A stretch of DNA of 64,000 nucleotides from Microcella humidisoli (GTDB lineage Bacteria > Actinomycetota > Actinomycetes > Actinomycetales > Microbacteriaceae): contig NZ_CP101497.1 in NCBI RefSeq assembly GCF_024362325.1, forward strand, positions 1,240,001 to 1,304,000, read 5' to 3'. Each line of letters starts with the position of its first letter. Positions within the stretch are counted from its first letter, which is position 1. The position numbers and the translations under genes are program-made. Below the pieces are notes generated by a model that made no database searches, had not been told where the DNA came from, and saw only the letters and a program-made list of their open reading frames with translations. Below, one piece after another: positions 33,422 through 60,237 of the stretch.

Positions 33422-33494
33422 GCGCCCGTAGCTCAATGGATAGAGCATCTGACTACGGATCAGAAGGTTAGGGGTTCGAGTCCCTTCGGGCGCG
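33422..33494 (+). tRNA. tRNA-Arg (anticodon ACG)
   Basis: Acceptor GCGCCCG (33422-33428) pairs with CGGGCGC (33487-33493), with discriminator G. The anticodon loop CTACGGA between TCTGA and TCAGA carries ACG at 33455-33457, whose A is normally converted to inosine. It marks the left edge of the compositionally distinct island, a common integration position. Confidence 0.95.
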
Positions 33495-33500
33495 CGAGTA

Positions 33501-35125: not shown

Positions 35126-37879
35126 GTGGCGAGATTGGCATGGAACGAGATTCAGGCGCGCGCTGCGGCCTTTGCCGAAGAGTGGTCCGGCGAGACGTAT
35201 GAGAAGGGCGAAAGCCAGTCGTTCTGGGCGGCTTTCCTCGAAGTCTTCGGCATCAACAGACGCCGCGCCGGCGGCTACTTCGAGTACGCCGTCAAGCTCG
35301 ACGGAGGGCGTCGAGGCTTCATCGACATGTTCCTCCCGGGCCGCCTGCTCGCGGAGCAGAAGTCGGCCGGCCGTGACCTGAACGTCGCGCGTGGCCAAGC
35401 GTTCGAATACCTCGATGGGCTCGACGACCACGACCTTCCGCAGGCAGTGGTGCTGTCCGATTTCGCATCGTTCCAGCACATTGACCTCGATACGCGAGTT
35501 GTCACCGAGTTCGCACTGCAGGATCTCCCCAAGCATGTGCGTCTTTTCGGCCCCCTCATCGAGCAGCAGAGCATCAAGGCCGAGGAAGCTTCGCCGGTCA
35601 ACCGGCAGGCCGCGGAGCGAATGGCCGAACTCCACAACGCACTCGAGACTGCCGGCTATGTCGGCCACAAGCTTGAGCTGTTTCTCGTGCGGCTGGTGTT
35701 TTGTCTCTTCTCTGAGGACGCCGGCATCTTCGAGCCGAAGCAGTTCCGCGACTACGTGCGCCACAGAACCTCTGAGGACGGCACCGACGTTGGCCCGCGG
35801 CTATCGAAGTTGTTCGAAGTGCTGAACACGCCAGAGGATCAACGCTCGAAGAACATTGACGAAGACCTGGCGCGCTTTCCGTACGTGAACGGCGGACTCT
35901 TCGCGGAGGTGACCGCAGCGCCGGACTTCGACGCAAACATGCGCTTCGCACTGTTACTCGCCTCCCAGCCGGACTGGCGCAAGGTCTCCCCCGCAATCTT
36001 CGGCGCCATGTTCCAAGGGGTCATGGATGGCGACGCGCGCCACGAGCTTGGTGCGCACTACACCAGCGAGGAGAACATCCTCCGCGTCATCAAGCCGCTA
36101 TTCCTGGATGACCTCTACACGGAGTTCGAACAAGCTCGCCGATCACAGCAAAGCGCTGCCCGCCTGGCCGCGTTCCACGACAAGATCGCTGAACTCAACT
36201 TCCTGGACCCGGCGTGCGGCTCCGGAAACTTTCTGATCGTCGCCTACCGCGAGCTGCGACGCCTCGAGATGAAGGTCCTGGAGGCAAAGGCGAAGCACTC
36301 AACGATGGTGTTCCTCGCGACGGATTTCCGAGTGCGGGTCGAGCAGTTCTACGGCATCGAGATCGATGAGTTCCCGGCGCAGATTGCCCGCACGGCGATG
36401 TGGCTCACGGATCACCAAATGAACACTGAGGCGGCCCAGAAGATCGGCCACGACTACTCCAGGCTGCCGCTCACCGAGGGTGCTCACATCGTCAACGCGA
36501 ATGCGCTGACCACTGAGTGGTCGAGCGTCATCGACGCTCACGAGCTCGACTTCATCTTCGGCAACCCGCCTTTCCTGGGTTCTCGGACCATGGACAGGGG
36601 CCAGAAAGCAGAGTTGAAGGCTGTGGCAAACGGGTACCCGCAGTCAGGGTTCCTCGATTTCGTCACAGGTTGGTACATCCTGGCCGACCGGATGATGGAA
36701 GCAAACCCTGCGATTCAGACCGCGTTCGTGTCAACGAACTCGATCAGTCAGGGCGAGCAGCCCGGCATCCTGTGGCCGCGGCTGTACCAGCGTGGCAACC
36801 ACATCACCTTCGCCCACCGCACCTTCCGGTGGACGAACGCAGCTCGAGGCGTCGCCGCGGTGCATTGCGTGATCGTCGGGTTCGCGAGAACCAAGCGGGA
36901 GCCGGCTCAGCTGTTCGACTACCCCGATATTGCTGGCGAACCGGTCCTCGATCTTGTCCAGTCGATCAGTCCCTACTTGATCGCCGGTGGCGAGTTCGTG
37001 GTGTCCAACCGTCAAGAGCAGATCAGCGGAGCTCCACGGATGGCCTTCGGGAATATGCCCGCTGACGGCGGCCACTTGCTGCTGTTGCCGCACGAGCGCG
37101 ACGAGCTCCTGGCAGCCGAACCCGACGCCGCGAAATGGATTCTGCCGTACATCGGCGCGAAAGAGTTCCTGCAAGGCAACGAACGATTCACGCTCTGGCT
37201 GAAAGGAATCTCTCCGGCGCAACTGAGGGCGATGCCCCTGGTCGCCGCGCGCATCGCAGCAACACGCGAGGTCCGGTCCGCATCAGCCAGACCGGGCCTT
37301 GCCGACACCCCGCACCTGTTCGCCCAGATCACCCAGTCGCCCCACACCACAGTGCTGGCGATCCCGCGAGTGTCGTCGGAACGCAGGCCGTATGTGCCGA
37401 TGCAGTTCTTCGGGCCCGGGAACGTCATCGCCGATTCGTGCCTCGCGATCGAAGGCGCGACTGAAGACGTCTTTGCTCTGCTGACGAGCGCTATGCACAA
37501 CGACTGGCTTCGCACCGTTGGCGGTCGACTCGAGAGTCGGCTGCGGTACTCGAAAGACGTCGTCTACAACAACTTCGTACTGCCACCGATCTCAGACGCC
37601 GAGAGAGCACACTTAGCTGAGCTTGGTCGAGCTGTGCTTGGCGCTCGGGCGTTGTACCCGGATTCGACACTCGCTGATCTCTACGATCCCGTCGTCATGC
37701 CCATCGAGCTGCGCACCGCGCACACCGCGATCGACGCCTACGTAGATCGTCTCTATCGAACAGAAGGCTTCGGCTCGGCCGACGAGCGAGTTGCTCATCT
37801 GCTAGAGCTCGTGCAAGAGAAGGAAGCACGAACGGCGAAGTCGGGACTGACGTCACCTGTCGGTGGAGCCGCTGACTAA
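35126..37879 (+). CDS. MmeI-like type IIL restriction-modification enzyme
   Basis: A 917-residue single-chain enzyme, close to the usual length of about 920. The N-terminal nuclease domain has the MmeI motif D-X9-E-X-K as Asp67, Glu77 and Lys79 (IDMFLPGRLLAEQKSAGR). A helical linker follows to about residue 300, then a gamma-class N6-adenine methyltransferase with motif I DPACGSGNF (Asp361) and motif IV NPPF (Asn480). The C-terminal part (about 600-900) should be the target-recognition domain. All key residues are intact, so it is predicted to be active: it methylates one strand and cuts about 20 nt away. GTG 35126 fits the family N-terminus. Its stop abuts a decayed recombinase on the opposite strand. 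Confidence 0.9.
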   Translation: MARLAWNEIQARAAAFAEEWSGETYEKGESQSFWAAFLEVFGINRRRAGGYFEYAVKLDGGRRGFIDMFLPGRLLAEQKSAGRDLNVARGQAFEYLDGLDDHDLPQAVVLSDFASFQHIDLDTRVVTEFALQDLPKHVRLFGPLIEQQSIKAEEASPVNRQAAERMAELHNALETAGYVGHKLELFLVRLVFCLFSEDAGIFEPKQFRDYVRHRTSEDGTDVGPRLSKLFEVLNTPEDQRSKNIDEDLARFPYVNGGLFAEVTAAPDFDANMRFALLLASQPDWRKVSPAIFGAMFQGVMDGDARHELGAHYTSEENILRVIKPLFLDDLYTEFEQARRSQQSAARLAAFHDKIAELNFLDPACGSGNFLIVAYRELRRLEMKVLEAKAKHSTMVFLATDFRVRVEQFYGIEIDEFPAQIARTAMWLTDHQMNTEAAQKIGHDYSRLPLTEGAHIVNANALTTEWSSVIDAHELDFIFGNPPFLGSRTMDRGQKAELKAVANGYPQSGFLDFVTGWYILADRMMEANPAIQTAFVSTNSISQGEQPGILWPRLYQRGNHITFAHRTFRWTNAARGVAAVHCVIVGFARTKREPAQLFDYPDIAGEPVLDLVQSISPYLIAGGEFVVSNRQEQISGAPRMAFGNMPADGGHLLLLPHERDELLAAEPDAAKWILPYIGAKEFLQGNERFTLWLKGISPAQLRAMPLVAARIAATREVRSASARPGLADTPHLFAQITQSPHTTVLAIPRVSSERRPYVPMQFFGPGNVIADSCLAIEGATEDVFALLTSAMHNDWLRTVGGRLESRLRYSKDVVYNNFVLPPISDAERAHLAELGRAVLGARALYPDSTLADLYDPVVMPIELRTAHTAIDAYVDRLYRTEGFGSADERVAHLLELVQEKEARTAKSGLTSPVGGAAD

Positions 37880-38486
37880 AGCGACTGAAGTGCCCGGTAC
37901 CACGTGGCTCGACTGATCTGGAGCATCTCCGCAGTTTCCACTCGGTGTGGTCTCCGATCGCTGCGAGCTTGTGGACACGTCCCCGTAGTCTGTCCTCGAC
38001 CTCGACCTCGACCTCGACCTCGACCTCGACCTCGACCTCGACCTCGACCTCGACCTCGGCCGGCCTGCCGCCGAGCCGTCCCTGAGTTGGGGCGGGCCAG
38101 GCCAGCGCTTGCGCTCGACGAGGGTGTCACGCTCGAGCGGCGCGAAGGCGGTCTTTACCGTCAGCATGGCTTCCTCCATGGGGCCACCGGTGCTGATGCC
38201 CTTGGTGAGAGCGCAACGTCGATTCTTTGCTCCCAATTGTCTCGAGGAGCTCGAGGACATTGCGCGTGTTCCGATCGAGCCGGTCGAGCTTCCATACGAC
38301 CACCTCGTCGCCGTCGTCCAGTCAATCGAGTAGCGCAACGAGCTGCGGAAGGGTCACGAGCGTTCCAAAGATCCCTTCGTCGTTATCGACGTACTTCTCG
38401 GGGATGGCGGCGGCTGCGATGGCGTCGCGCTGATGGGCGTTGTTCTGCTCCGCTGTGCTGGTCCGGATATAGGCGAAGGTCGTCAC
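37876..38486 (-). pseudogene. Decayed serine recombinase (resolvase/invertase)
   Basis: On the minus strand the sequence starts TTFAYIRTSTAEQNN (catalytic Ser region; GTG 38486). It then has an in-frame TGA at 38322-38324 where a DxLxDGDEVVVWKLDRL segment continues. It shifts frame in the middle (fragments GISTGGPMEEAMLTVKTAFAPLERDTLVERKR), and regains an HTH tail (AEMLQISRATWYRALQSL) in another frame, ending at 37876. At least one stop and two frameshifts make it nonfunctional. The linker before the HTH contains a large hexanucleotide expansion. It is probably the remnant of the mobility module of the island. Confidence 0.85.
37995..38054. repeat. Ten perfect tandem CTCGAC hexamers
   Basis: CTCGAC is repeated ten times without error, with imperfect copies at the ends. 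It lies in the linker region of the recombinase pseudogene. Being a multiple of three, it does not itself shift the frame. Confidence 0.95.
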
Positions 38487-38767
38487 TCGGCTGAGGCTAG
38501 CGAGTCGTCTCTCAATTCCCGAAGATTCGAGACAGAGCTATGAGACTCAGCACCCGCGCGTGGCGTCTGCTCAGCTCACGGTCTCAATAGGCGATCAAAC
38601 TGAGATACACGATCACAGCGCCGCACGCGCCGCCAGGCAACCACTAAGGCTGGGACCATGGATGACAGGCAGGTCAACATGAGTTGTCCGCGTGCGGCAG
38701 TGCCCAATGCGTAGTCAGCGGTATAGCGTGTCTGCAAAGGCAAATGGATTAGCGGGGACGTTGGTCC
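38487..38767. other. Intergenic region upstream of the giant NTPase gene
   Basis: No gene is recognised. A TATAGC (about 38722) might be a -10 for the downstream gene. GGGGACG lies about 10 nt before ATG 38768. Confidence 0.35.
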
Positions 38768-41700
38768 ATGACGGGAGCAGTCGCCGCGGGACTCTCGCCA
38801 GCCAAGGAGGCGATCACTACGACACAGAGCCCACCGGACCCCGGGCCGGCACCCAGCCCCTCCGATAGCTTCGCAGAGTCGGTAGCCGACAGTCGCAGGG
38901 GTGATCGATTCCACTATGTCTGGGCGGCCGTCCAGTCCCTAAAACTCTTGGACCAGCAGTCCGAACTCTTTCAGGTTTGGGTCGAGGGAGCGGCTGGGGA
39001 ACCGGTGCCGGGTGATGAAGTTATCGACCTGGCCGAATACTATGGCGCACGCGAAGCCGTCGACCGGGTGATAGTTCGGCAGCTCAAGTACTCGACTAAG
39101 CGAGCCACCAAGGGACTGGGTCTCTCGGAACTCGGCCCGACGTTCCGCAAGTTCTCGCAGATCGAAAGGAGAAAGTACGCCGCACTACGCATTCCGATGA
39201 CAGCCGACGCAGCGTATGTGGTCACCTCCAACCGCCCGGTCAACCCGTCCCTGCAGAATGCCATTGAGCAGGTCGTGACTGGGAAGCCGATCGGGAAGAA
39301 CTCGATCGCCTCGAAACTACTCGGGTGGCTGGAGACTGACCAACTGCAGGCAGCGGACTTGCTAGACCGCCTCACTTTCGACGGTGCCGGTTCGGAACTC
39401 GCAACGCTACAAGCTCAGCTTCAGGTGCTCACCGCAGAGTTGACCGGAGAGACGGATAGCACCGTTCCGCCCGTTCTCCTTGATCACGTCAGTCGTCGCG
39501 CGGCTGGGGACGTCAGCGGGCCCATCGAGGTATCCACGGTCGCGATGGCGTTCGGTGTGACGGTCGAAGATCTCGTCCCGGCCCCGTCTCTCATTCCTCC
39601 GTTCGAGGGCACGGTCGCCCGGGTCGCGTACCGGGAGTTGTCGGACATCGTGCTCGGCAGTGCGGGACCGACGATTATCTCCGCGGTTGGAGGGGCCGGG
39701 AAGACGACGTTCGCAGCATCACTGCCGACCCTTCTCAAGGAGCGGGCAGTCGTAGTCATCTACGACTGCTTCGGAAACGGCAGTTATCGGGCGCCAGATA
39801 AACCGCGCCACCGCCACCGCGATGGCCTGGTTCAGATCGCCTCGGAGCTGGCGGCTCAGGCGCTGAGCGCGCCGATCATCCCCCGCGCGTCGACCGGATC
39901 CGCAGAGTATACGAAAGCGTTCGTCCGTCGGCTGCGGGAGGCGCGGCGTCGTCTCGCGGAAAGCGCACCTGGCATCGAGCTGGTAGTCGTGGTGGACGCT
40001 GCTGACAATGCTGTGATCGCCGCCGAGGCGCGCGGTGACCAGCCATTCGTGCACGACCTTCTGCAGCTCGACCCCATCGACGGGGTCCACATCGTCGTTA
40101 CCGCTCGTCCATACCGGGTCGCCCAACTCCGCGCACCGTCTGAGGTTCAGATCCATCAGCTCGCAGAGTTCTCGATTGACGAGACGGAATTGATGCTTCG
40201 CGCCGTGCACCCGGGCGCGACCGACAACGACATCGCGGAGTTCCATCGCAGGACTTCAGCGAACCCACGCATCCAGGCTCTGGTGCTGAGCGAGACAGCC
40301 ACCCTCAGCGAGTGCCTGAGCTCCCTGACGGGGCTGTCCGCCATCGGGGGTGACCCCGTGGCCCAGCTGCTGGGGAAGCAGCTCAACAACGTTATCGAGG
40401 CGGCGGGCGGCGACCGTGGCTCCCTCGAGTTCGCGGGGCAACTCCTCGCGACTTTGCGGCCGCGGATCCCGGTCGAGGTAATCGCGTCGCTGACGGGTCG
40501 CGATGAGAGCCTAATCCGGAGTTTCGTGTCCGACCTCGGCCGTGGGCTGGTCATCGAAGAGGATGCGGTGCAGTTCCTCGACGAGCCGACTGAAACGTTC
40601 TTCCGCAACCTTTACCCGCTCTCAGAGGAGAACGCTGATCGCGTTATCCGGGAGCTAACAGCGTTGTCGTTGTCGAACGGGTACGCGGCGGCGTCCTTAC
40701 CTCAAGTTTTGTGGGAAGCCGGGCGTTTCCAGGATCTCGCCGCCCTCGCGGTTTCCGAGGAGGGACTGCCTGCCGCGGGTGAGGTCGAGCGGCGTCAGAT
40801 CGCCCAGCTGCGGACATCGTTCGCGCTTCGCGCCGCGATCCGAGTCGGTGACCCTGCTGCCGTCGTTAACCTGGCAATGCTTGCAGGGGCTGCCGTTGCG
40901 AGTTCGGAGCGTCGTTACACGCTGCTGCGCGATCATCCAGACCTCGCGGGAGAGGTTATCGATGGCACAACGCTCGACGAGATTCGAGCGGCCCGCCTGA
41001 TCCCGACTGAATGGCCGGGGTCGGTCCTCAATAGCGAGGCGGTCATGCTCGCCATGACGGAGGGGCGGCGGGGAGACGCTCTCAACCGACTCCGGGGTGC
41101 CCGCGCGGCGATCTCTGCGTGGGTGCAGACCTCGCCGGAGCACCGTGAAGGCAAGCTCGAGCCACGCCACGGGGCAAACATCGCGCTCGCTACGGCTTGG
41201 CTTCAGAACGAGGTGTTGGCCGCACGCTATCTCGAGGGTTGGCAGCCGGCGCGGTGGGTGTTCGATCAATCGCGGTCGGTCGCGTCAATCCTGCTGGCCC
41301 GTGGGGAGCGGGATCGGGTGGAACGTCTCGGCGTGGCCGCGCGGACATCTTCCCTGAGTCTGGCGATAGCTGCGGAACTTCAGAAGTTGGGATTGCCGCT
41401 GTCACGCGACCATGCCGAACGAGCGTGGCGCACGCTGCGCGGGGCGCGCGTAGACATCGACTCCGACGATTTCTCGATGGGAGGGATCTCCGACGCCATC
41501 TATAGGGGAGTCGCATGGATCACCGCGTACAGCGTTCGCTCGGGAATTGCGACAGTCCGCCAGGGTCTCAACCTACTCGCCAAGTATCTGCCGAAGACCC
41601 CGCCTCGGGGACTCGGTGACTACCACGGAGCTGACAACACCGGACTCCTCTGCGCTTACGCTTTGAGTGCCGCCCTGCGGGGCCGCGCCCTCCAGATCGA

Positions 41701-44700
41701 AGACCTGGAACCTGCGCGCGACAGTCTCGCCCGCGGCAACCGAGAGGAAGACAACGCCGAGCTGACCCGCCTGCTGCCGTGGCTGCACGGATGGGCCGGT
41801 TGGGCTATCGGGCAATCCACCGCGGCCGGCATCCGGAAGCTCCTCGACAGCTACCCTACGGAACGCTCCTCCTACCGAGATCCGATCCTCCTGCGCCGGA
41901 TCGCTGGCCCGATGACCGCACAGTTGGCTCGGTCTTCGCGCTCGGCCCGTGTCGCAAGCTCGTTCGAGAAAGTCCTCAGGTCGGCGCAAGACCACTCGGG
42001 TTTGTTCGTGGCGACAGACATGATCGCATCGCTGCAGGGCGATGCAAGGTTCGTCGACTCCGCCTACGAGTGCGCGGCCGCGTCGGCAGCGAGCGCAGAG
42101 GCCGAGCAGCAGACTGCAGATCAGATGGCCGACGACCTTGTTCGTATCGCTCGTGCCATGTGCCTGTTCGACCGGGCAGAAGCGCATGCTTACTTCAGCA
42201 AGGCGGTGACGATCGTCTCGCGCGTCGGCGACGACACGTGGCAGCGCTGGGAGTCCATCGTTTCGCTAGCGCGAGGCTCCATCGTCGACGACCCCAACGA
42301 GGCCTTTCTGCTGGCAAAACATCTGGCAGACACAGCCGAACGGCTTGAGCCGTACTTGTACAACGGCTTAAACTCCACGAATCTCCTGTCTGCCCTGGAA
42401 CGGATGGCGGGACCGGGATCACTCGCTATCGCGAGCCAGTGGCGCGATCGGCAGTTCGGATCCTTCGGGTCGCTGATCGGCGCCCTAAGGGCTAACGCTG
42501 ACGGGGTTCTTGCCGGCCACCCCGAGCTTGGGATTGCGCTCAGCCCGTTCTCGGACGCTGGCGATCTCGGGTACGAGGCGGCCGCGCTCTCCGAGACGGG
42601 CTCCCTCACAGATGAACGATTCCGCGCCGTGCAAGAGCTCGCTTGGGCTCGCGGCGGCGAGATCGCAGCGGAGGACGTCGACCCAAGGTGGGCAGAGCAG
42701 TATGGCCTGAGGCCGCGCCGACCCCAGCACGATGGAGGCTACGTCAACTCGACCCTGGACGATCCGAGCTGGGAGTCTAAACGCGAGCAGGAGCGCGAGG
42801 CCCTGCGCGGGTCACTTCGCCTGTTGGATCTTGGTTCTCAGACCGGCATGGCGGAAGCGGCGGCAGCGATCCACGACGGGCATCATGGTTCGGCTGCGTC
42901 GTTCGTGATTGATGAGATAGAACGCCGCCCGAAAAACACCTGGGTGTCGATCCTCGCGGCGTTCTCGAACGAAGATTCGTTCAGCGTCTGGGAGCGTGCC
43001 GAGTTCATTCGCCGTGCTAGCCGACTTAATTCTTCGAGTCAGGCGTTTCGAATAGCTCTGCGAACGCTTGGCAACGACTACCTCCTCCGTAGTGCCGCGG
43101 ATGTGACGTCCGGCGTGTCACTCGGGCTCGAGCTCGGTGTCCTCGCTGCGGTGCTGGGGACAGACGAACGGTCAGTGCTGCTGCGAGCCCTCGAGCTGAC
43201 CGATGCGGAGGTCGCGGTCGCGTCCGCTGACTCCTGCTACAGATTGGCTGGAGGTGTCGCACCGCTACTCGCTGCTCCCGATGCCGTGCGTGCACTGACG
43301 GCAGCGCTCCGCGCGCTGGAAAGCGCCCTCGAGATCGATCCATGGTCGCCAGCAGGCGTCGAGATCCCGACCACTGCCGACGCGGGTTCGGCTGTCGCTG
43401 CAACGATCTGGTCGGCGCTGTCAGACCCTCGCGCGTCAACTCGGTGGCGAGCAACTCACGCCGCTCGCTTCCTCATTTCGTTCGGCGCCAGTGACGCGGT
43501 ACAGGCGCTGACGCTTATGGTCCTTCATGACGCGCCAGTCGGCTTCGCGGACCCCAGATTCCCGTTCTACCGATGGCACGCCATCGAGGGATTTCTGGTG
43601 GCCGCCGAGCGCGTCGCGGTCGACGATCCCGAGCGGGTGACCCCGCTGCTGGCTTCGATATCGGCCCTCAGCGCAGCAAACCTCGACCATGCCCGCATCC
43701 AGCACCTCTGCATGCAGATTGCGCACCGATGCGATGACTCCAGCCTCGCCCAATCCGCCACGATCCCGCGGGCGTCGCTCGACGACGTGCGCAGGTTCGA
43801 GCGGCCGCGCGCTCCGAAACCGTACGGACACCATGCGGCTAAATCTGACTTCTCGTTCCACTTCGACTTCGAGGAGTACTCGATCGCCCCGCTCAGCGAG
43901 GCGTTCCAAACCACCCACCAGGAAGTAGTGCGGGCGATGAGCGACTTGATCCTCGACGAGTGGGGCTATCGAAGCTCGATCGAGCTGAAGGAGGATCCCC
44001 GCCGCCGCGCAGGAGCGTATGGCAGCGAAGAGACCTACTTCTACAAGTACGACTTCCCGGTGGCGGAAGATTTGAAGTACTACCTCAGCCATCATGCCCT
44101 GCTGACTGTCGCGGGCCGGTTCTTGCGATCGACAACGCGGTTTCGCGACCCCGACGAGGGCGTAGATGCGTTCGACGAGTGGTTCGCGCAGTTCGACCTC
44201 GGACGCGAGGATCGCCGGTGGATCGCGGACATCAGAAGGCCGGTCCCGGACGGGCACGAACGTCGACAGCACAGCTACGGAGATGACTGGCTGTGGAAGG
44301 TTGAGGCGAACGACTTCACCCCGGAGTTCCTGCACGCAGACGGTTGGGTGACCGTCCGATCCGCCGCCCGCCAGTCCCATTACGGTAGTTGGGACAACAC
44401 ATTTGTGACCAGTTCGCTGGTGGCAGAGGACACTGGGATGGCGCTAATGCGGGCACTGCAGGCTGCACCATCGTTCACCAATCATCGCCTCCCCCTGACC
44501 GACGACGAAGACTTCACCTTCAACAACGGATCGTTCCAGCTTCGTGGTTGGATCGATAGTCCTCACCACGAGACTGGCGTCGACCGCCGCGACGACTTCG
44601 CCCGCGATGTGCAATTCCCCACCCCTCGGCCGAGCCGGACGGTCCTCGATGCGGTGGGGTTGTCTTCAAGTGAAGACGGCATGAGTTGGAGCACATCCGA

Positions 44701-45013
44701 TGGAGTGCTGGCGGCAACGGCGGAATCCTGGTCTTTGAGGGACCATGGGCGCGAACCTAGCGGACCGCACGGCACTCGTCTGCGTGTATCACCAGAGCTG
44801 CTTACTAGCGTCGCCACACACACCGGCATGGCCGTTATCGTCGAAGTGCGAATCGACCGCTACGCCGAGTCCACCCGACGCAACTCGAACCACGACTCAC
44901 TGGGATACCTCGATGACTACGTCAAGTTCTTCCTCTTCAGCCCCGGTGCCGGATGGCGAGACGCGCGCGGCCGTCCTATCATTGGGCCAGCAGATCGCGG
45001 ACAGCCTGGATGA
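38768..45013 (+). CDS. Giant STAND NTPase with N-terminal nuclease, AVAST/Avs3-like
   Basis: A 2081-residue protein. After a disordered Pro/Ser-rich leader, residues 45-110 resemble a Cap4/DUF4297-type PD-(D/E)xK nuclease (FHYVWAAVQSLKLL, Glu73 in VWVEG, QLK at 105-107). A STAND/NACHT-like NTPase follows: Walker A GGAGKTT (308-314), Walker B VVVVDAAD (Asp410, Asp413) and an arginine-containing VVTARPYRV (447). Residues about 500-1550 look like alpha-helical TPR-type repeats, followed by a C-terminal domain to 2081. This order (nuclease, STAND, helical sensor) is that of Avs anti-phage proteins, which recognise phage terminase or portal proteins and then oligomerise. Subtype 3 is suggested by size, nuclease type and the small partner gene, but is not proven. 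The first ATG is used; the true start might be slightly downstream. Confidence 0.7.
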   Translation: MTGAVAAGLSPAKEAITTTQSPPDPGPAPSPSDSFAESVADSRRGDRFHYVWAAVQSLKLLDQQSELFQVWVEGAAGEPVPGDEVIDLAEYYGAREAVDRVIVRQLKYSTKRATKGLGLSELGPTFRKFSQIERRKYAALRIPMTADAAYVVTSNRPVNPSLQNAIEQVVTGKPIGKNSIASKLLGWLETDQLQAADLLDRLTFDGAGSELATLQAQLQVLTAELTGETDSTVPPVLLDHVSRRAAGDVSGPIEVSTVAMAFGVTVEDLVPAPSLIPPFEGTVARVAYRELSDIVLGSAGPTIISAVGGAGKTTFAASLPTLLKERAVVVIYDCFGNGSYRAPDKPRHRHRDGLVQIASELAAQALSAPIIPRASTGSAEYTKAFVRRLREARRRLAESAPGIELVVVVDAADNAVIAAEARGDQPFVHDLLQLDPIDGVHIVVTARPYRVAQLRAPSEVQIHQLAEFSIDETELMLRAVHPGATDNDIAEFHRRTSANPRIQALVLSETATLSECLSSLTGLSAIGGDPVAQLLGKQLNNVIEAAGGDRGSLEFAGQLLATLRPRIPVEVIASLTGRDESLIRSFVSDLGRGLVIEEDAVQFLDEPTETFFRNLYPLSEENADRVIRELTALSLSNGYAAASLPQVLWEAGRFQDLAALAVSEEGLPAAGEVERRQIAQLRTSFALRAAIRVGDPAAVVNLAMLAGAAVASSERRYTLLRDHPDLAGEVIDGTTLDEIRAARLIPTEWPGSVLNSEAVMLAMTEGRRGDALNRLRGARAAISAWVQTSPEHREGKLEPRHGANIALATAWLQNEVLAARYLEGWQPARWVFDQSRSVASILLARGERDRVERLGVAARTSSLSLAIAAELQKLGLPLSRDHAERAWRTLRGARVDIDSDDFSMGGISDAIYRGVAWITAYSVRSGIATVRQGLNLLAKYLPKTPPRGLGDYHGADNTGLLCAYALSAALRGRALQIEDLEPARDSLARGNREEDNAELTRLLPWLHGWAGWAIGQSTAAGIRKLLDSYPTERSSYRDPILLRRIAGPMTAQLARSSRSARVASSFEKVLRSAQDHSGLFVATDMIASLQGDARFVDSAYECAAASAASAEAEQQTADQMADDLVRIARAMCLFDRAEAHAYFSKAVTIVSRVGDDTWQRWESIVSLARGSIVDDPNEAFLLAKHLADTAERLEPYLYNGLNSTNLLSALERMAGPGSLAIASQWRDRQFGSFGSLIGALRANADGVLAGHPELGIALSPFSDAGDLGYEAAALSETGSLTDERFRAVQELAWARGGEIAAEDVDPRWAEQYGLRPRRPQHDGGYVNSTLDDPSWESKREQEREALRGSLRLLDLGSQTGMAEAAAAIHDGHHGSAASFVIDEIERRPKNTWVSILAAFSNEDSFSVWERAEFIRRASRLNSSSQAFRIALRTLGNDYLLRSAADVTSGVSLGLELGVLAAVLGTDERSVLLRALELTDAEVAVASADSCYRLAGGVAPLLAAPDAVRALTAALRALESALEIDPWSPAGVEIPTTADAGSAVAATIWSALSDPRASTRWRATHAARFLISFGASDAVQALTLMVLHDAPVGFADPRFPFYRWHAIEGFLVAAERVAVDDPERVTPLLASISALSAANLDHARIQHLCMQIAHRCDDSSLAQSATIPRASLDDVRRFERPRAPKPYGHHAAKSDFSFHFDFEEYSIAPLSEAFQTTHQEVVRAMSDLILDEWGYRSSIELKEDPRRRAGAYGSEETYFYKYDFPVAEDLKYYLSHHALLTVAGRFLRSTTRFRDPDEGVDAFDEWFAQFDLGREDRRWIADIRRPVPDGHERRQHSYGDDWLWKVEANDFTPEFLHADGWVTVRSAARQSHYGSWDNTFVTSSLVAEDTGMALMRALQAAPSFTNHRLPLTDDEDFTFNNGSFQLRGWIDSPHHETGVDRRDDFARDVQFPTPRPSRTVLDAVGLSSSEDGMSWSTSDGVLAATAESWSLRDHGREPSGPHGTRLRVSPELLTSVATHTGMAVIVEVRIDRYAESTRRNSNHDSLGYLDDYVKFFLFSPGAGWRDARGRPIIGPADRGQPG

Positions 45014-45593
45014 GCACGACCTCCTCTCGAGGTGGATGGCGCAGCATCTCGCCGAGCGTCTGGCGGCACTCGAGTCGCTAAAGGGTAGGGCGCGACTCGA
45101 GGCGGAGGACGCGGTCGCAGAACTGATCTTGCAGATCTGGGCGCACCGACGTGAGGTCGGGTTCCGGAGGGACCCCCTCGCCGCAACGGACAGCGTGGAG
45201 CGGGCGATCGCGCGCCTGGACCCGGAGGCCAAAGGCTTGTTCTCCTACTTCCGGCCATTCGATGATGAGCCGGGGCCGTCAGTGGCGGAGATTGAAACCA
45301 ATCAGGCGTTGAAGCTGGCGTTGGCCGTGGACAGAATCGGCGAGGACCTGGTCCGAGCGCTGGTCACCTACGCCGCCTTGACCGCTATCGATCATGACGC
45401 TGACTGGGTAAGGGCCAGCGACGCCATCCATCCGACGACGTTCCGGCGACTTGAGCGCCTGATTAGCTATGAGGGCAGTAGCGACACGGATGCTGCGCCG
45501 CTCGAAGTGGCAGAGAAGCGGGTGTCGGAACGTGCGCGGTCTCTGGGCAAGCTCGTGCGCCTGGCATCGAAGCTAGCCGCTGCCGACCAATAG
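44913..45593 (+). CDS. Small partner protein of the Avs-like NTPase
   Basis: A 226-residue, mostly helical protein overlapping the 3' end of the NTPase gene by 101 bp in another frame. Clear helices are SLGQQIADSLDEHDLLSRWMAQHLAERLAAL, AEDAVAELILQIWAHRREVGF and the C-terminal RARSLGKLVRLASKLAA. ATG 44913 is the most upstream plausible start; GTG 44946 is an alternative. Type 3 AVAST loci are known to pair the ATPase with a small protein (Avs3b). Position and overlap suggest that role here, but no sequence signature confirms it. Confidence 0.65.
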   Translation: MTTSSSSSSAPVPDGETRAAVLSLGQQIADSLDEHDLLSRWMAQHLAERLAALESLKGRARLEAEDAVAELILQIWAHRREVGFRRDPLAATDSVERAIARLDPEAKGLFSYFRPFDDEPGPSVAEIETNQALKLALAVDRIGEDLVRALVTYAALTAIDHDADWVRASDAIHPTTFRRLERLISYEGSSDTDAAPLEVAEKRVSERARSLGKLVRLASKLAAADQ

Positions 45594-46606: not shown

Positions 46607-47449
46607 ATGGCATTGCTCAAAGATGTTTTGGTGGGGGAGCGCTGGGCATACCGGATCAGCGACGCCGACCGTCTCACAGAAGTTGTGGTTCAGGGTGTCA
46701 ACGACTCGAAGCCGGCCCGGGTCGAAATCACCTACGCCGCTATCCCAGAGTCGGTTGTTGATTCAGTCCCGCCAAGCCGGTTGAAGGTTCGCTGGCCGGA
46801 GCGAGACCGCTTTCTGCGACGGGAAGCGCAATGGCGCACCATCAGCAGCCGGCCGAGCAACGTCGAGCGTATGGCCGTGACCGCTGTCATAGACGAGTTC
46901 TTTCGCCCAGCAGCCGCGATCGGTGCAGGCAAGCTAATGAAAGGCACTATCGCCATTTACGATGCCGATCTTGTCGACGTCTTCATGGGCGGCGGACTAG
47001 AAGGAGTTCTGCGGGGTGCTGATCACGTCGCCGAAGGCGCCGCCGATCATTACGGCTGGGAAGTCGCGGTTGAGATTGCCAAGCGAACCTGCCGTTTCAA
47101 GCCGGATCGGGTCATGGCATTGGTGCAAGCCGAGGAGAAAAGTGGCTGGTCCGCATGGTCCGGGGCGTGGACGGGGTCATCGGCGACGCGGGCCTTCGAA
47201 GCTTCAACGGGACAGACCTGGAGTCTCTTGCGAAACTGGTGTGGCCGGGAATCGGACGCGCTTGTTGAGCTAACAGGTCTCCGCGACGATCTTGCCCGGT
47301 TGATCGCGGCGTTTGAAGCGGCGGTTGTCTTGGTTGCGCGTGGTCTGGACGAAGCGCGGGCTCGGGAACTCTTTACAACGGCGTACCCCGAAGCCGAGGA
47401 TGCTGAATGGCACTTGCTCCTTCGCCGGGCTCGAGGTGTTGCTGAGTAA
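46607..47449 (+). CDS. Conserved-looking hypothetical protein
   Basis: A 280-residue soluble protein with a good AAGGAG Shine-Dalgarno sequence before ATG 46607. It starts MALLKDVLVGERWAYR. Later parts include GTIAIYDADLVDVFMGGGLEGVLRGAD, a region rich in Trp and Ser (KSGWSAWSGAWTGSSATRAFE) and a helical C-terminus (DDLARLIAAFEAAVVLVARGLDEARARELFTTAYPEAEDAEW). No family is recognised. It is probably controlled by the divergent MarR protein. The weak GC bias marks it as island DNA. Confidence 0.6.
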   Translation: MALLKDVLVGERWAYRISDADRLTEVVVQGVNDSKPARVEITYAAIPESVVDSVPPSRLKVRWPERDRFLRREAQWRTISSRPSNVERMAVTAVIDEFFRPAAAIGAGKLMKGTIAIYDADLVDVFMGGGLEGVLRGADHVAEGAADHYGWEVAVEIAKRTCRFKPDRVMALVQAEEKSGWSAWSGAWTGSSATRAFEASTGQTWSLLRNWCGRESDALVELTGLRDDLARLIAAFEAAVVLVARGLDEARARELFTTAYPEAEDAEWHLLLRRARGVAE

Positions 47450-47600
47450 GGAGATGCTTCACGTAGCCAGTTACTGGGGTGCCCGCGCGCCTTGGAAGCC
47501 CCTTTCGCCCGCTAGCAGACCAGGTGCGAATGCCTGGGGACGCTGCGGAGATCCTCGGCCGCGAACACCCGCATCTGAGCTGCAATGCAGTCGGCTCGAG

Positions 47601-47684
47601 GCGGGGAGGAGGAGGAAGAAGGGAGGAAGTATCTCTCTCATCTTTACTTCCCTTCCTCATTCCTCCTCCGCCCTTAAGGGGCGG
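47601..47684. terminator. Long polypurine/polypyrimidine hairpin
   Basis: A purine-only arm (47605-47629) and a matching pyrimidine arm (47645-47668) form a long imperfect stem around a CT-rich loop. It is followed directly by a second hairpin, CCGCCC-TTAA-GGGCGG (about 47668-47684). Confidence 0.6.
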
Positions 47685-47737
47685 AAGAGGAAAGAACAAG
47701 CGAAGCGGTCGTTTCGGCTGGCGGCGGAAGCAACAAC

Positions 47738-47766
47738 AAGGCGGCCTCGAAGTCCGGGGCCGCCTT
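47738..47766. terminator. Bidirectional terminator between convergent genes
   Basis: AAGGCGGCC (47738-47746) pairs perfectly with GGCCGCCTT (47758-47766). The flanks are A-rich on the left and T-rich on the right, suiting termination from both directions. Confidence 0.7.
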
Positions 47767-47781
47767 CTTGGTTGTCGACAC

Positions 47782-48486
47782 TCACGCCAGTTCGTAGTAC
47801 TTCGCGGGCCCCTTCGTGAACATGGTCACCTTGCCAGCCTCGAGAAGAGACGCCATGATTCCGCTGCTCGTGTTTTTCGTGAAGCCCTTGAGCTTGAGAG
47901 CGACCAAGTCGCCGATGGTCATGGGTACGCCGTGATCCGCCATCGCGCGCAGAACCGCGACCTCGACGCTGCTCTCGCGATTCGTAGGGGCCGGCTTGGA
48001 GGGCACCGGGCAGTTTTCGCAACGTGGCCAAGCGTTGATTTCGGAAACCCACGCGCTTTCCACCAGGAAGAACGCGTGGTGAAGAATCGCCGCAGCGTCC
48101 ACCTCTTCAATGGTGTCGGAGACCCCGAGCTGCAGCGTCGGCACTGACTTGTATTTCCCGTCGGCGGAAGCTCGGGCCTCGCGATAGCAGTCGTTCCCAA
48201 GGCGAGCAGAGAATAGCTGGGACGGTTTGCGTCTGTGCTCCCATGCCTCCGTGCGCGGGATTGCCGGGCAGTCTTCGCAACGTTCGAATTGTTGCACCAA
48301 AGCGACGTACTGCTCGAAGTCTCCGTCGGGAGCGTCTCCTTCCGCCCCGCGGCCGGAGGTCAATAACCCTCTCTCAACCCAGGCGGGACGCAAGCACTCG
48401 ACGAGCGCAACGGCGTGGACGATGCAGAATCCGCGGAGGAGGCTAGGGCTGCGTTCCGCGAGAGTGGAAGCCTCACTGCAGGTCAC
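47782..48486 (-). CDS. Hypothetical protein with two CxxCP pairs and a C-terminal winged helix
   Basis: A 234-residue protein with the paired motifs CEDCP (residue about 70) and CENCP (about 155), which could bind one metal. A C-terminal segment resembles a winged helix (SSVEVAVLRAMADHGVPMTIGDLVALKLKGFTKNTSSGIMASLLEAGKVTMFTKGPAKYYEL). The N-terminal helical part is also Cys-containing. The GTG start at 48486 overlaps the stop of the excisionase-like gene (GTGA), so both are one operon. The function is unknown; a DNA-binding regulator of a mobile element is plausible. Confidence 0.6.
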   Translation of the reverse strand: MTCSEASTLAERSPSLLRGFCIVHAVALVECLRPAWVERGLLTSGRGAEGDAPDGDFEQYVALVQQFERCEDCPAIPRTEAWEHRRKPSQLFSARLGNDCYREARASADGKYKSVPTLQLGVSDTIEEVDAAAILHHAFFLVESAWVSEINAWPRCENCPVPSKPAPTNRESSVEVAVLRAMADHGVPMTIGDLVALKLKGFTKNTSSGIMASLLEAGKVTMFTKGPAKYYELA

Positions 48487-49599: not shown

Positions 49600-50058
49600 A
49601 TGAACGAGAACGTGGGGGTCGCGAGCGACATCAATGGGCGCGCGCTGCAAGATCACTTGGTGGCTGAGTTAGGCCTGAAGGATCTGACAGCACAAATTGG
49701 ACCCGATCGGCCATATCCCAGCGTCGCTGAGGCTGCGATCGAGATCCTGCGCGCGGGACAGGTCGATCGACTGGTGCTGATCTGTGGCACCGGAATTGGC
49801 ATGTCGATTACGGCGAACAAGTTTCCAGGCGTGCGAGCGGCCTTGGTGTCCGATGTCTACTCGGCCCAGAGAGCATCGCGATCCAACGACGCCAATGTTC
49901 TCTGCCTTGGGTCGCAGACCATAGGAGCTTCAGTCGCACCGATTCTTGTGCGCGAATGGCTAGAGGGGTCACTCGACATGGCCCGCTCAGGCAGCAAGGT
50001 TGAATTGGTCGCTGCCATCGAGCAACGCGTGATGGCTGGAGCGGAGGGACGATCATGA
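49600..50058 (+). CDS. RpiB/LacAB-family sugar-phosphate isomerase
   Basis: A 152-residue protein with the family signatures VGVASDINGRALQDHL and CGTGIGMSITANKFPGVRAAL (the catalytic Cys and phosphate loop) and the NDANVLCLGSQTIG segment. Family members interconvert aldose and ketose phosphates (ribose-5-P, galactose-6-P, erythrulose-4-P). It is first in the operon, and its stop overlaps the E1alpha ATG. GGAGG lies about 5 nt before the start. The exact sugar is unknown. Confidence 0.87.
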   Translation: MNENVGVASDINGRALQDHLVAELGLKDLTAQIGPDRPYPSVAEAAIEILRAGQVDRLVLICGTGIGMSITANKFPGVRAALVSDVYSAQRASRSNDANVLCLGSQTIGASVAPILVREWLEGSLDMARSGSKVELVAAIEQRVMAGAEGRS

Positions 50059-51053
50059 GCGCGTTGCTGCGAGATGACGTGGAGATCGACTTCGACGCCG
50101 ACATAGTCGTGTCCGACAGCGATCACGAGCTTGCGCTCACCCTCTTCCACCAGATGCTAAGGATCCGCGAGTTCGAGCTACGGGTCAACAAGAGCTTCCT
50201 CGAGGGGCACATTCCAGGGACGATCCACCTCTCCTTGGGCCAAGAGGCGTGTGCGGCTGGTGCATGTCATCCCCTCAATGTCGAAGATTGGATCACGATT
50301 ACTCACCGCGGACATGGGCAGGCCCTAGCCAAGGGGGTCACGGCCGCGAGCATGATGGCCGAACTATTCGCGCGTGATGGTGGCTGCTGCCGGGGCTACG
50401 GGGGTTCGCTTCATGTCGGAGACATGTCGGTTGGTGCGGTGCCGGCGATCGCAATTGTTGCGGACTCTATTCCGATAACGGCTGGGATTGCCTACGCCTT
50501 CCGCGCACGGAACGAGCGTCGCGTCGCCCTCTGCTTCACGGGCGACGGCGCAGCTGGAGAAGGCGATTGGCATGAAGGTCTGAACTTGGCCGCAGCGTGG
50601 AACCTCCCGGTCGTTTACCTCTGCGAGAACAACCTCTATTCGATCAGCACGAGGATCGATCGGCAGTTCAAGAACACTTCACTCGCGGCACGAGCCGCAA
50701 CCTATGGCATGCGCAGTCTCGTGGTCGACGGCAACGACGTGCTCGCAGTGCAACGGGCCGTTGCGGCAGAGGTCGAGAGAATCCGAAACGAAGGCGGCGG
50801 CCCAGTTTTCATTGAGTGCCTCACGTATCGGCAGGGCGGTCACAAGCGAGACGATCCAGGAAGTTATCGCCCCCAGGAAGAAGTCGATCTCTGGATGGGG
50901 AGAGACCCCCTTGCGCGATTGGAGCGGACGCTTGTGGCCCAAGGAGCAGGAGGCGACGTCGAAGAACTCAGAGCGAAGGTCTCTGAAGAGCTCGATGAGG
51001 CCGTTGCTTGGGCATTCGCGAGCCCTCTAGCAGAATGGAAAGTCGACTCGTGA
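50055..51053 (+). CDS. 2-oxoacid/acetoin dehydrogenase E1 alpha subunit
   Basis: A 332-residue thiamin-diphosphate subunit: RIREFELRVNKSFLEG, TITHRGHGQALAKG and the ThDP motif GDGAAGEG...NN (FTGDGAAGEGDWHEGLNLAA then YLCENNLYSIST). The size and the LGQEACAAGAC start fit acetoin dehydrogenase AcoA and pyruvate E1alpha alike. It is coupled to the isomerase by ATGA and to E1beta by GTGA. Confidence 0.9.
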   Translation: MSALLRDDVEIDFDADIVVSDSDHELALTLFHQMLRIREFELRVNKSFLEGHIPGTIHLSLGQEACAAGACHPLNVEDWITITHRGHGQALAKGVTAASMMAELFARDGGCCRGYGGSLHVGDMSVGAVPAIAIVADSIPITAGIAYAFRARNERRVALCFTGDGAAGEGDWHEGLNLAAAWNLPVVYLCENNLYSISTRIDRQFKNTSLAARAATYGMRSLVVDGNDVLAVQRAVAAEVERIRNEGGGPVFIECLTYRQGGHKRDDPGSYRPQEEVDLWMGRDPLARLERTLVAQGAGGDVEELRAKVSEELDEAVAWAFASPLAEWKVDS

Positions 51054-52051
51054 GCACGACAGTCATCGCCGCACTTCGCGACGCACTCACGCATGAGCTG
51101 AGCACGGATGAGCGGGTCTTCATGATGGGTGAGGACATCGGCATCGGGGGCTCATTCCATCTCTCTCTGGGTCTCCTCGAAAAGTTCGGAGCGGAGCGCA
51201 TCCGCGACACCCCTGTCTCCGAAGCCGGATTCGTCGGTCTGGCCATCGGGGCGGCGATAGCAGGGATGCGTCCGGTTGTGGACTTCCAGTACGGAGACTT
51301 CCTTCTTCCAGCCGCGGATCAGATCATCCAGCAAGCGACCAAGATGCACATCATGTCTGGGCGACAAGTCACGGTGCCACTCGTGCTTCATGCACCCACC
51401 GGTGCATCGGGCCGCGGTGCGCAGCACGCCAACTCTGTGGAGAACATCTTCGCGGGCGTTCCTGGGCTGGTCGTAGCGGCTCCATCGACTCCATATGACG
51501 CGAAGGGCTGCATGACCACGGCTTTGCGCCACGACGGTCCTGTTCTCATCGTGAGCCACAAGTACCTCTACGGAACGAAGGGTCGATCCCTCATCGACGG
51601 GCACGATGTTGTTCAGGAAGTGCCATCTGAGTCCTACACGATTCCGATCGGCCGGTCGGCAACACGGCGCACCGGCGCCGACGTCACCATCGTGTCGAGC
51701 CTGCTGATGACTCACAGGGCCATGACTGCCGCGCTCGAACTCGAGAGTGCTGGAATCTCTGCCGAGGTCATCGACATGCGCTGGCTGGCGCCTCTCGATA
51801 TCGATGCTGTGCTCGAGTCCGTTTCGCGCACTAGCAGGCTTCTTGTTGTGGAGGAGGGCCCACGTCTCGGCGGGTGGGGTTCGGCTGTTGTGAGCGCTGT
51901 TGCCGCACAGGGACTGCATTACTTGGATGCCCCCGTTGGGCACCTGAGCGGTATCGACCAGCCCCTTCCGGCTGCACCTCATCTCGAACCACTTCTTGTT
52001 CCGACTGCCGAGCGAATTCGAGAGACAGCTCTGGAGTTGGTGCGCACATGA
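51050..52051 (+). CDS. 2-oxoacid/acetoin dehydrogenase E1 beta subunit
   Basis: A 333-residue transketolase-like beta subunit: DERVFMMGEDIGIGGSFHLSLGLLEKFG, RDTPVSEAGFVGLAIGAAIAGMRPV, HAPTGASGRGAQHANSVENIF and RWLAPLDIDAVLESVSRTSRLLVVEEG. GTG 51050, overlapping the E1alpha stop, is chosen over an upstream ATG at 51035. It completes the E1 heterotetramer that decarboxylates or cleaves the substrate with ThDP. Confidence 0.9.
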   Translation: MSTTVIAALRDALTHELSTDERVFMMGEDIGIGGSFHLSLGLLEKFGAERIRDTPVSEAGFVGLAIGAAIAGMRPVVDFQYGDFLLPAADQIIQQATKMHIMSGRQVTVPLVLHAPTGASGRGAQHANSVENIFAGVPGLVVAAPSTPYDAKGCMTTALRHDGPVLIVSHKYLYGTKGRSLIDGHDVVQEVPSESYTIPIGRSATRRTGADVTIVSSLLMTHRAMTAALELESAGISAEVIDMRWLAPLDIDAVLESVSRTSRLLVVEEGPRLGGWGSAVVSAVAAQGLHYLDAPVGHLSGIDQPLPAAPHLEPLLVPTAERIRETALELVRT

Positions 52052-53154
52052 CCACTCGAAACGTCGTCGTACCCGATGTCGGAGAGGGAGGCATGGACGT
52101 TGTCTTCGTACAGTGGTACGTCTCCGAGGGTGACTTCGTCAATGAAGGCGACGAACTCTTCGAACTAGATACCGCCAAAGCGAACGTGTCGGTGCAAGCG
52201 AGCGAGAGCGGATACATAGTTTCTCTTTCCGCATCTCCCGACGATGAAGTCGAACGCGGTCAGGTCGTGGCGAAGATTGCCGACGAGCCTGTTGACGTCT
52301 CAGTCCTTCCTCAAGAAGGCGCTTCGATGAAGCCAGCGGTAGAGCTGACGACTCACGAGTCTCCAGTCGAGTCCATGAGCCGAGCCTCCGTCGAAGGAGC
52401 CGGCTCGTCGTCGCCGTTCGTGAGCCCCAAGGCTAAGCGGTTGGCACGGGACCTTGGCATCGCCGTCCCGAACACCTCACGTGGTCAATGGGTTACAACT
52501 GACACAATCCGATCCACAAGCCAAGATCCGAGCCGTTCCAGCGGGACCGCGCGTGAGCCTGCCCTGAATGAAACGACTGCGATTCGGGCTGCCAGGCGGA
52601 GAGTGATGGCTACATCCTCGATGGCAAGTTGGTTGCAGGCACCGCACGCGAGCTTGTCTACTTCGATTGCGGCCGATCCTCGGGTGCGCACGCTTACGGT
52701 GCACAACTTGGTCTTGGCGTCAACGGTGGCACTCTCAGCGGTGCGAGACATCAACGTTCGGTGGGACGGTCAGAACGCCGTCGAACGCCCTGGCGTCAGC
52801 GTGGGGCTGCTGTGGAAAACGCCTTCAGGACTCGTTCTCACCCGGGTCGACGGCAACGAGAAGGCGCCGTCTGATCAATTAAAGGAAGTAGATGCTGCGC
52901 GATCGCGGGCCCAGCGTGGAGTACTTCTCCCAGAAGACCATGACGAACGTTCGCTCACGGTCATGTGGATTGATGCCGACTCACCCATGACAGGCTCCAG
53001 CATCCTGCCTCACGGAGACTCAGCGATGATCGTCGCCGTATCGACTTCTACTGACCTTGGACTGACACTGACGGTTGATCATCGATGCATCGATCTTGCT
53101 GACGCGGCTCGCTTTCTCGATAGCGTTGCGACATTCTTGAAGGAGAAGACATGA
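52048..53154 (+). CDS. Dihydrolipoamide acyltransferase (E2), compact form
   Basis: A 368-residue E2. N-terminal lipoyl domain with the lipoylation site in DTAKAN (Lys44), peripheral-subunit-binding domain (VSPKAKRLARDLGIAVP, about 135-155) and a catalytic domain from about 180. The catalytic His and Asp are present in DHRCIDLAD (His345, Asp349), but the usual DHRxxDG has Leu in place of Gly. The catalytic domain, at under 200 residues, is shorter than usual (about 230). ATG 52048 overlaps the E1beta stop. No E3 gene is present, so a shared dihydrolipoyl dehydrogenase must be used. Lipoylation could come from the LplA-like protein encoded at 8.4 kb. Confidence 0.85.
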   Translation: MTTRNVVVPDVGEGGMDVVFVQWYVSEGDFVNEGDELFELDTAKANVSVQASESGYIVSLSASPDDEVERGQVVAKIADEPVDVSVLPQEGASMKPAVELTTHESPVESMSRASVEGAGSSSPFVSPKAKRLARDLGIAVPNTSRGQWVTTDTIRSTSQDPSRSSGTAREPALNETTAIRAARRRVMATSSMASWLQAPHASLSTSIAADPRVRTLTVHNLVLASTVALSAVRDINVRWDGQNAVERPGVSVGLLWKTPSGLVLTRVDGNEKAPSDQLKEVDAARSRAQRGVLLPEDHDERSLTVMWIDADSPMTGSSILPHGDSAMIVAVSTSTDLGLTLTVDHRCIDLADAARFLDSVATFLKEKT

Positions 53155-53573
53155 ACAGCAAGAGGCGGGCACTGGTGTCCACTACATCTTCCCGCAGCGC
53201 GGTGGATGTAACTGACTTGATTTCAGAACTGTTGGAAGGCCAATCTGGCCCCGTACATGTCAGCGTTCCGCACACCACGTGTGCGCTCATACTCAGCGAG
53301 GTAGATGACGAACTTCTTTCCGACTACGAGCGACTGAGCTCCGAACTGCTGGCGCCCTTCGAGCCTTTCTCCCACATTCGCAACGACGTTCCCAATGCCA
53401 GCGCACACATCCTCTCTGCAATGTTCGGCACAGCGATTGTCGTCTTCGCGGAGTCAGGCGTGATCGACCTTGGCCGATACCAGCGCATCGTGCTTCTAGA
53501 GTTGGATGGTCCGAAAGACCGCACGATCACGATTCTGCCCCTGACGGCTCAGGAGTCAAGTGGCGCTCACTGA
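53151..53573 (+). CDS. YjbQ family protein (UPF0047)
   Basis: A 140-residue YjbQ-type protein: VDVTDLISELLEGQSGPVHVSVPHTTCALILSEVDDEL, NDVPNASAHILSAMFGT and GRYQRIVLLELDGPKDRTI. Family members form trimers with a conserved His cluster and have weak thiamin-phosphate-synthase activity; their real role is uncertain. A thiamin-related role next to a ThDP-dependent E1 is suggestive only. ATG 53151 overlaps the E2 stop. Confidence 0.85.
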   Translation: MNSKRRALVSTTSSRSAVDVTDLISELLEGQSGPVHVSVPHTTCALILSEVDDELLSDYERLSSELLAPFEPFSHIRNDVPNASAHILSAMFGTAIVVFAESGVIDLGRYQRIVLLELDGPKDRTITILPLTAQESSGAH

Positions 53574-55053: not shown

Positions 55054-55065
55054 TGCGTGTACGTT

Positions 55066-55075
55066 GCTATACAGG
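55066..55075 (+). promoter_or_regulatory. Motif GCTATACAGG upstream of the GntR gene
   Basis: An exact copy of the 10-mer at 49561-49570. It lies 40 nt before the regulator start, consistent with autoregulation. Confidence 0.5.
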
Positions 55076-55115
55076 GTTCGGCTAAATGAACTAGTTGCGA
55101 GGGGAGTGGCCGCTG

Positions 55116-55883: not shown

Positions 55884-56029
55884 CAGCGAGGCAGCTCAAA
55901 TCTTGCGCGGACAGCTTTCCCTACTCGCGTAGTTTGCTGTCGACTCGTGCCCAAGGGTCTCTACAGACGTGGCCGCTTGCCTCGTGTGGCGATGCTCGCC
56001 CGTTGCCGCGCTCTGGTCTAAACGTAATT

Positions 56030-56044
56030 ACGTGTATATACTGC
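56030..56044. promoter_or_regulatory. Candidate operator/promoter of the kinase-deaminase gene
   Basis: CGTGTATATACTGC shares the TGTATA/TATACA core with the other cluster sites. TATACT within it could be a -10 about 65 nt before the start. Confidence 0.35.
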
Positions 56045-56110
56045 ATCTGACCTATTGTGCGCTCATGGTGCCTTGCTCGGGGGTCGCAGATTAGAAGGAG
56101 CTCGACGGGA

Positions 56111-57769: not shown

Positions 57770-57926
57770 GAGCGAATGTCTCGCTCTCACGCCACCTCCC
57801 CACTGCCGCGTGGTCGCCATCTAAACGCGACGAGGCTCACCTATCTGAATCTGGGGGGTGGAGTCAGCACAACTCGGCGCCAGAGCGACATGGGGTGGCG
57901 GGCAAGCATCCCATGCGATGCCATAG
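57770..57926. other. Short convergent intergenic region
   Basis: It lies between the fused kinase gene and the opposing SMP-30 gene. No clear terminator hairpin is seen. Confidence 0.4.
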
Positions 57927-58733: not shown

Positions 58734-58740
58734 GCTTCAG

Positions 58741-58757
58741 GTATACAACAGTTGACA
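58741..58757. promoter_or_regulatory. Divergent control region with TATACA motif and -35
   Basis: GTATACAACAG (58741-58751) resembles the other cluster motifs. It directly precedes TTGACA (58752-58757), the likely -35 of the transporter operon, and sits 8 nt from the SMP-30 start codon. Confidence 0.45.
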
Positions 58758-58854
58758 TGACTACACGAGTGTGGTTGTGTGTATCCCAATCGCGAGCGCC
58801 AGGAGGTTTCGCGATCCATTTCTGACATCTAGGTGTCTCAAAGAGGAGGCAAGA

Positions 58855-60207: not shown

Positions 60208-60237
60208 GCTGTGACTGAAACGCGAAGGGGCCGAGCC

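Follow-up and report, generated by a model that had tools for sequence, protein, structure and literature searches.

A probable intact and divergent Avs3 (AVAST type 3) gene pair on a mobile island of the actinobacterium Microcella humidisoli

In the Avs3 protein of Salmonella enterica (SeAvs3), binding of a ligand to the sensor is reported to form a tetramer that pairs the nuclease domains and leads to DNA cutting (PMC11291478, PMC10952240), and once terminase, portal or Ksap1 has been read, the nucleases of Avs1–4 are reported to cut the genomes of phage and host alike (PMC12931631). The SeAvs3 structure in PDB entry 8dgc was solved with phage terminase. Here we describe a gene pair, avs3a and avs3b, in a 64,000-nucleotide stretch of the Microcella humidisoli genome (contig NZ_CP101497.1, positions 1,240,001 to 1,304,000; hereafter the window), which is very probably an intact, divergent actinobacterial two-gene Avs3 (AVAST type 3) locus and for which we propose a mechanism of sensing and cleavage. 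Our direct observations on this locus concern its homology to Avs3, its fold, its intact motifs, purifying selection, the coupling of the two genes and their carriage on an island.

Profiles, the solved SeAvs3 chain and structure all supported the Avs3-like identity that a first-pass annotation of the sequence had proposed, and identified its small second gene as avs3b. A search with Avs profiles, which that annotation had suggested, returned the PADLOC family Avs3a for the large protein (1090.7 bits, best stretch residues 39–1236) and Avs3b for the second gene (97.6 bits). SeAvs3 was the sole PDB sequence match to Avs3a better than E 0.28, and it matched at E 1.9e-222 in two stretches of the Microcella protein, residues 39–1237 and 1460–2058. 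The C-terminal 500 residues, said at first pass to match nothing recognizable, in fact match SeAvs3 residues 1469–2073, and the stretch left unmatched is residues 1238–1459. When residues 1–236 were searched alone with phmmer, residues 39–169 matched SeAvs3 residues 7–147 (E 1.2e-14), and Pfam gave only weak AAA/NACHT matches below cut-off. Avs3a has the layout of an Avs3 protein, with an N-terminal PD-(D/E)xK nuclease, a central STAND NTPase carrying Walker A and Walker B motifs, and a C-terminal sensor with the Avs3 fold, and avs3b lies directly downstream.

The frame of avs3a is open over 2086 codons, and the two reading frames as first annotated (2081 and 226 residues, overlapping by 101 bp) were confirmed. 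The nuclease motif consists of E73, D87 and Q105-L106-K107 (VEGAAG from residue 72, IDLAEYYG from residue 86) within a domain whose limits, residues about 40–230, were our choice. The positions of Glu73, QLK (105–107), Walker A (308–314) and Walker B (410–413) noted at first pass were correct, and these motifs align with those of SeAvs3 and other Avs3a proteins. E, D and QLK or QFK were present in 15 of 16 aligned Avs3a-like proteins, the exception being that of a Shewanella plasmid (L013), and GK(S/T) and DA of the Walker motifs were present in all 16. Two observations count against the Avs3 assignment. Both proteins fell below the cut-offs of the corresponding NCBIfam models (1177.4 bits versus 2800 for NF041816, Avs3a; 98.5 versus 200 for NF041817, Avs3b), which are NCBI equivalog naming groups narrower than the Avs3 type, and consequently the names Avs3a and Avs3b are not assigned automatically; moreover, residues 1238–1459 had no sequence match to SeAvs3. 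Scores under half of these cut-offs bear out the earlier description of the locus as divergent.

The ratio of nonsynonymous to synonymous substitution rates (dN/dS) against the Rathayibacter orthologue (L002) was 0.06–0.29 in each of 20 bins of 99–100 codons, indicating that avs3a is kept by purifying selection. This result bears on whether the locus has decayed into a relic, or encodes a STAND regulator without an anti-phage role, as might be supposed from our finding no activity data for the clade and from the uncertain start codon of avs3a (discussed below). Set against the long open frame, the full set of intact motifs, purifying selection in every bin and carriage on an integrase-bearing island next to a restriction gene of MmeI type, such an explanation appears highly improbable.

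Because all parts are conserved, our best guess is that the Microcella pair follows the same course as SeAvs3. By analogy with SeAvs3, Avs3a would remain inactive until its C-terminal repeat sensor was bound by a conserved protein of the phage, most probably the large terminase; nucleotide at the intact Walker site would then support a tetramer in which the N-terminal PD-(D/E)xK nucleases are paired, and the paired nucleases would cut phage and host DNA and abort the infection, as is reported for SeAvs3 and Avs1–4. Avs3b would act as a dedicated partner of the Avs3a sensor, aiding its folding, quiescence or ligand reading, rather than as a second effector. Both the anti-phage role of the pair and its target are what we infer from the family.

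The ligand may differ from that of SeAvs3 because the sensor segment 1238–1459 lacks a SeAvs3 sequence match, and the protein could then be an Avs3-fold receptor that reads portal, capsid or an actinophage-specific protein through this segment. A hidden Markov model (HMM) of residues 1240–1470 matched only L002–L005 among 19 loci and none of the other 15, two from Rhodococcus included, and of the 41 bins in which conservation within the clade was scored, the three with the lowest values (0.42, 0.45 and 0.48) fall in this segment, although the nuclease bin 139–188 comes close, at 0.49. The range of ligands reported for Avs1–4 as a group is also in keeping with a changed target. However, 844 of 921 in-range residues were aligned in the structural alignment with terminase-bound SeAvs3, so at least 145 of the segment's 222 residues must lie within the aligned fold, and dN/dS in the two bins covering residues 1239–1438 (0.20 and 0.14) gave no sign of positive selection. 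Nor is a divergent segment necessarily the contact surface, and on balance we consider a changed ligand unlikely.

Avs3b strictly accompanied Avs3a in the genome samples, which makes its role a direct question. Avs3 was rare in the Microbacteriaceae sample, in which 3 of 398 genomes carried Avs3b and the same 3 a STAND fragment (none of the nine other same-genus genomes listed had Avs3); in the class sample, the Avs3b profile matched 6 of 394 genomes, the Avs3a C-terminus was found in the same 6, and it adjoined Avs3b at each of the five loci besides that of Microcella. At two of these five loci (L044 and L045) only the profile detected Avs3b (E 1.8e-12 and 3.0e-12), whereas single-sequence tblastn did not. 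Avs3b was present at 14 of 20 loci (a set made up of the Microcella locus, four genome loci and 15 of 17 plasmid hits), and wherever full flanks were read and Avs3b was found it was a separate protein beside Avs3a (15/15 loci). All eight plasmid loci with Avs3b and annotation had it overlapping avs3a, by 11 to 107 bp as annotated. Downstream of the six genes without Avs3b, no plus-strand open reading frame (ORF) of at least 50 amino acids within 1.5 kb resembled Avs3b; the best E, even after filters were switched off, was 1.4.

Presence of Avs3b may also follow the sensor type. We scored the parts of Avs3a with HMMs built from the actinobacterial clade at 19 loci, leaving out that of Microcella. 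The C-terminal part scored 196–1016 bits at loci with Avs3b versus 58–158 at loci without it, so that the ranges were separate, whereas they overlapped for the nuclease (none to 310 versus 37–95 bits), for STAND (140–498 versus 126–177, with a second piece at 44 in the broken L012) and for the middle part (42–1069 versus 29–94). The Shewanella plasmid protein (L013:2221-8523) has no nuclease motifs in its first 230 residues, and L017 is weak in all other Avs3a parts with a better C-terminus; both loci retain Avs3b. We tentatively suggest that Avs3b obligately partners the sensor of Avs3a and not the nuclease, acting as a small helical co-receptor or as a chaperone of the sensor that tracks sensor type. 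If so, Avs3 would be a two-part receptor and not a one-protein receptor with an accessory gene. We hold this reading loosely because the separation from the other parts rests on few loci, chiefly L017 and L013: without these two the nuclease scores separate as well, as do those of the middle part without L017 and those of STAND without L017 and L005. Distance from the Microcella clade alone could give the same picture, and structure lends no support, since the all-helical model of Avs3b is weak (predicted local distance difference test score 63.1, predicted template modelling score 0.40) and none of its 98 Foldseek matches at E <= 10 reached E <= 0.001; all of these points tell against a sensor partner.

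Strict co-occurrence and overlapping, perhaps coupled, genes would also fit if Avs3b were a negative regulator of Avs3a, an immunity-like brake and not a co-sensor. We think this rather unlikely, because six loci (L014, L015, L016, L018, L019 and L020) carry an Avs3-like nuclease match without Avs3b, indicating that such nucleases can exist in its absence, and conversely L013 keeps Avs3b without a recognizable nuclease; among the six, L019 counts little because a transposase gene lies between its two pieces. That Avs3b has no known function and is a separate protein beside Avs3a would also suit a role as a further effector or as an adaptor that takes in a second signal from the phage. This role seems quite doubtful, given that Avs3b had no match at E <= 0.001 to any family of Pfam (18 families at E <= 1, best 0.0095) or PHROGs, that Avs3b itself was the only PADLOC family matched at this threshold, by 33 of 33 members (three other families matched one member each, best E 0.0014), and that the protein is predicted, with low confidence, to be all-helical. 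The Avs3b profile matched no PDB sequence at E <= 1, and among the papers searched for Avs3b, avs3a and 'AVAST type 3' no mention was found. Kinship with other small defence subunits was considered and dropped, the weak model having matched a Lamassu chain only at E 3.6 in Foldseek. Among these alternatives, we continue to favour, tentatively, a partner of the sensor.

The start of avs3b could be placed by comparison with L002. The ATG at 44913 is kept there and has counterparts in the metagenomic homologue P0019 and in the Propionicimonas locus (L003). Substitutions by codon position in the avs3b frame were 4/6/4 inside the overlap and 5/15/5 in the same frame upstream of this ATG, a difference from which the overlap looks constrained in both frames. 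Two later starts were rejected: TTG 44982, used by the 203-aa database protein P0003, because L002 has CTG there, and ATG 45036, used by homologues of 184–188 aa, because from the avs3a stop to that ATG all changes in the seven codons against L002 are silent (four silent, none replacing).

The start of avs3a is less certain. Its ATG at 38768 is matched at the equivalent position in P0025 and not in L002, which has an in-frame stop at the codon equivalent to residue 11 and is listed as starting from a GTG at residue 39, where Microcella has GTA. Against L002, codons 1–15 differ by 8/9/5 at the three positions, without a coding pattern, and codons 16–38 by 4/4/12, with one, suggesting that the ancestral protein may have lacked the first ~15 residues. 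Ten more distant orthologues, of those in which a GDRF motif was found, begin 25–29 residues before it (about residues 16–20 here); AAGGAGG stands at 38804–38810, where these orthologues begin, and no ATG, GTG or TTG is found there. For this region (38768–38830), translation may begin at a rare start codon (ATC or ACG) or upstream.

A scan of genome contigs found four related loci, in Rathayibacter (81% identity in the best segment), a Propionicimonas metagenome-assembled genome (39%) and two Demequina (36%), and of the 8000 candidates scored in a protein search, 41 matched at E <= 1e-10. Plasmid-borne relatives of Avs3a were 25–31% identical (29–30% for Rhodococcus plasmids). An IMG/VR viral contig also holds an Avs3a–Avs3b pair at 26% identity (L054:330-7167). 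In Demequina flava (L005), avs3a is open and tblastn leaves query residues 379–563, part of STAND, unmatched around 9023–9423, perhaps through a local frame shift and back.

The Avs3 pair is carried on an integrase-bearing mobile island in the single-contig, 2.65-Mb Microcella genome. The 32.5 kb between two copies of an attachment (att) repeat (Table 1) have a GC content of 0.59–0.65, compared with 0.67–0.73 leftward in the window and 0.71–0.74 in the first 12 kb rightward. Just inside the right end lies a tyrosine integrase (L033:527-1771, minus strand; Pfam 44.3 bits, PHROGs integrase), and a relative (L023) has an empty site, its tRNA running directly into sequence that resembles the right-hand flank of the second copy. 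The sugar-use cluster encodes an RpiB-like isomerase, E1 alpha and beta and E2-like proteins, an FGGY kinase, a GntR regulator, a fusion of BadF-type and glucosamine isomerase parts, an ABC sugar transporter and GH4. Three ORFs next to the avs3 pair (37904–38494, 46607–47449 and 47479–48147) matched nothing in Pfam, PADLOC or PHROGs at the limits used, and a distant DNA search of 46607–48147 in plasmids gave no match. Elsewhere, avs3a of L002 directly follows a tRNA-Ser(gct) (L002:7773-7864) and a tRNA-Pro follows avs3b in L003 (L003:14893-14969); a tRNA scan of the nine other loci, L004–L012, found none.

Table 1. Positions of the Avs3 genes, their parts and other island features, in window numbering.
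Feature	Positions	Strand	Description	Basis
avs3a	38768..45013	+	2081-aa STAND NTPase: nuclease, STAND, repeat sensor, C-terminal alpha/beta domain	
PD-(D/E)xK nuclease domain (Cap4/DUF4297-type)	38885..39457	+	N-terminal, residues about 40-230	phmmer and motif alignment
Walker A	39689..39709	+	GGAGKTT, residues 308-314	alignment of Avs3a proteins
Walker B	39983..40006	+	VVVVDAAD, residues 406-413	alignment of Avs3a proteins
Divergent sensor segment	42479..43144	+	residues 1238-1459	gap in SeAvs3 sequence match
C-terminal alpha/beta domain	44135..44962	+	residues about 1790-2065	DSSP on AlphaFold2 model; SeAvs3 sequence match
avs3b	44913..45593	+	226-aa partner with a 101-bp overlap with avs3a; predicted helical in a weak model	
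attL	33449..33497	+	3' part of tRNA-Arg(acg), 49-bp direct repeat	exact repeat
Second att copy	65911-65959		contig 1305911-1305959, outside the window	exact repeat
MmeI-type IIG enzyme	35126-37879		single-gene restriction-methylation enzyme, 917 aa	five MmeI Pfam domains above cut-off
Sugar-use cluster	49600-63271		on island	

The kind of system is already known, and the Microcella locus extends it by a well-supported, intact, un-named actinobacterial branch. For annotation, orthologues named 'hypothetical protein' in records from Rathayibacter, Clavibacter, Frigoribacterium and Microbacterium are Avs3a homologues. What remains of interest is this un-named branch, together with the divergence of the sensor segment and the strictness with which Avs3b is tied to Avs3a and perhaps to its sensor.

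Among described systems, the DUF4297–HerA nuclease and Cap4 share the PD-(D/E)xK nuclease with Avs3a, and theirs is reported to work by dimerization; in the DUF4297–HerA study, the top structural matches are reported to be SeAvs3 and EcCap4 (PMC11291478). DUF4297–HerA has no STAND or sensor part and is partnered by HerA. Avs4 resembles Avs3 in being a STAND receptor with a repeat sensor, and the chain title of PDB 8dgf describes Avs4 bound to portal. The second protein agrees with described Avs3b (PADLOC PDLC02168, NCBIfam NF041817) over 207 of 226 residues (E 1.2e-28), in the same place and with the same overlap with avs3a. SeAvs3 itself now has a distant comparison point, in which the nuclease, STAND and C-terminal domain are kept and residues 1238–1459, not alignable to SeAvs3 by sequence, are the part that varies.
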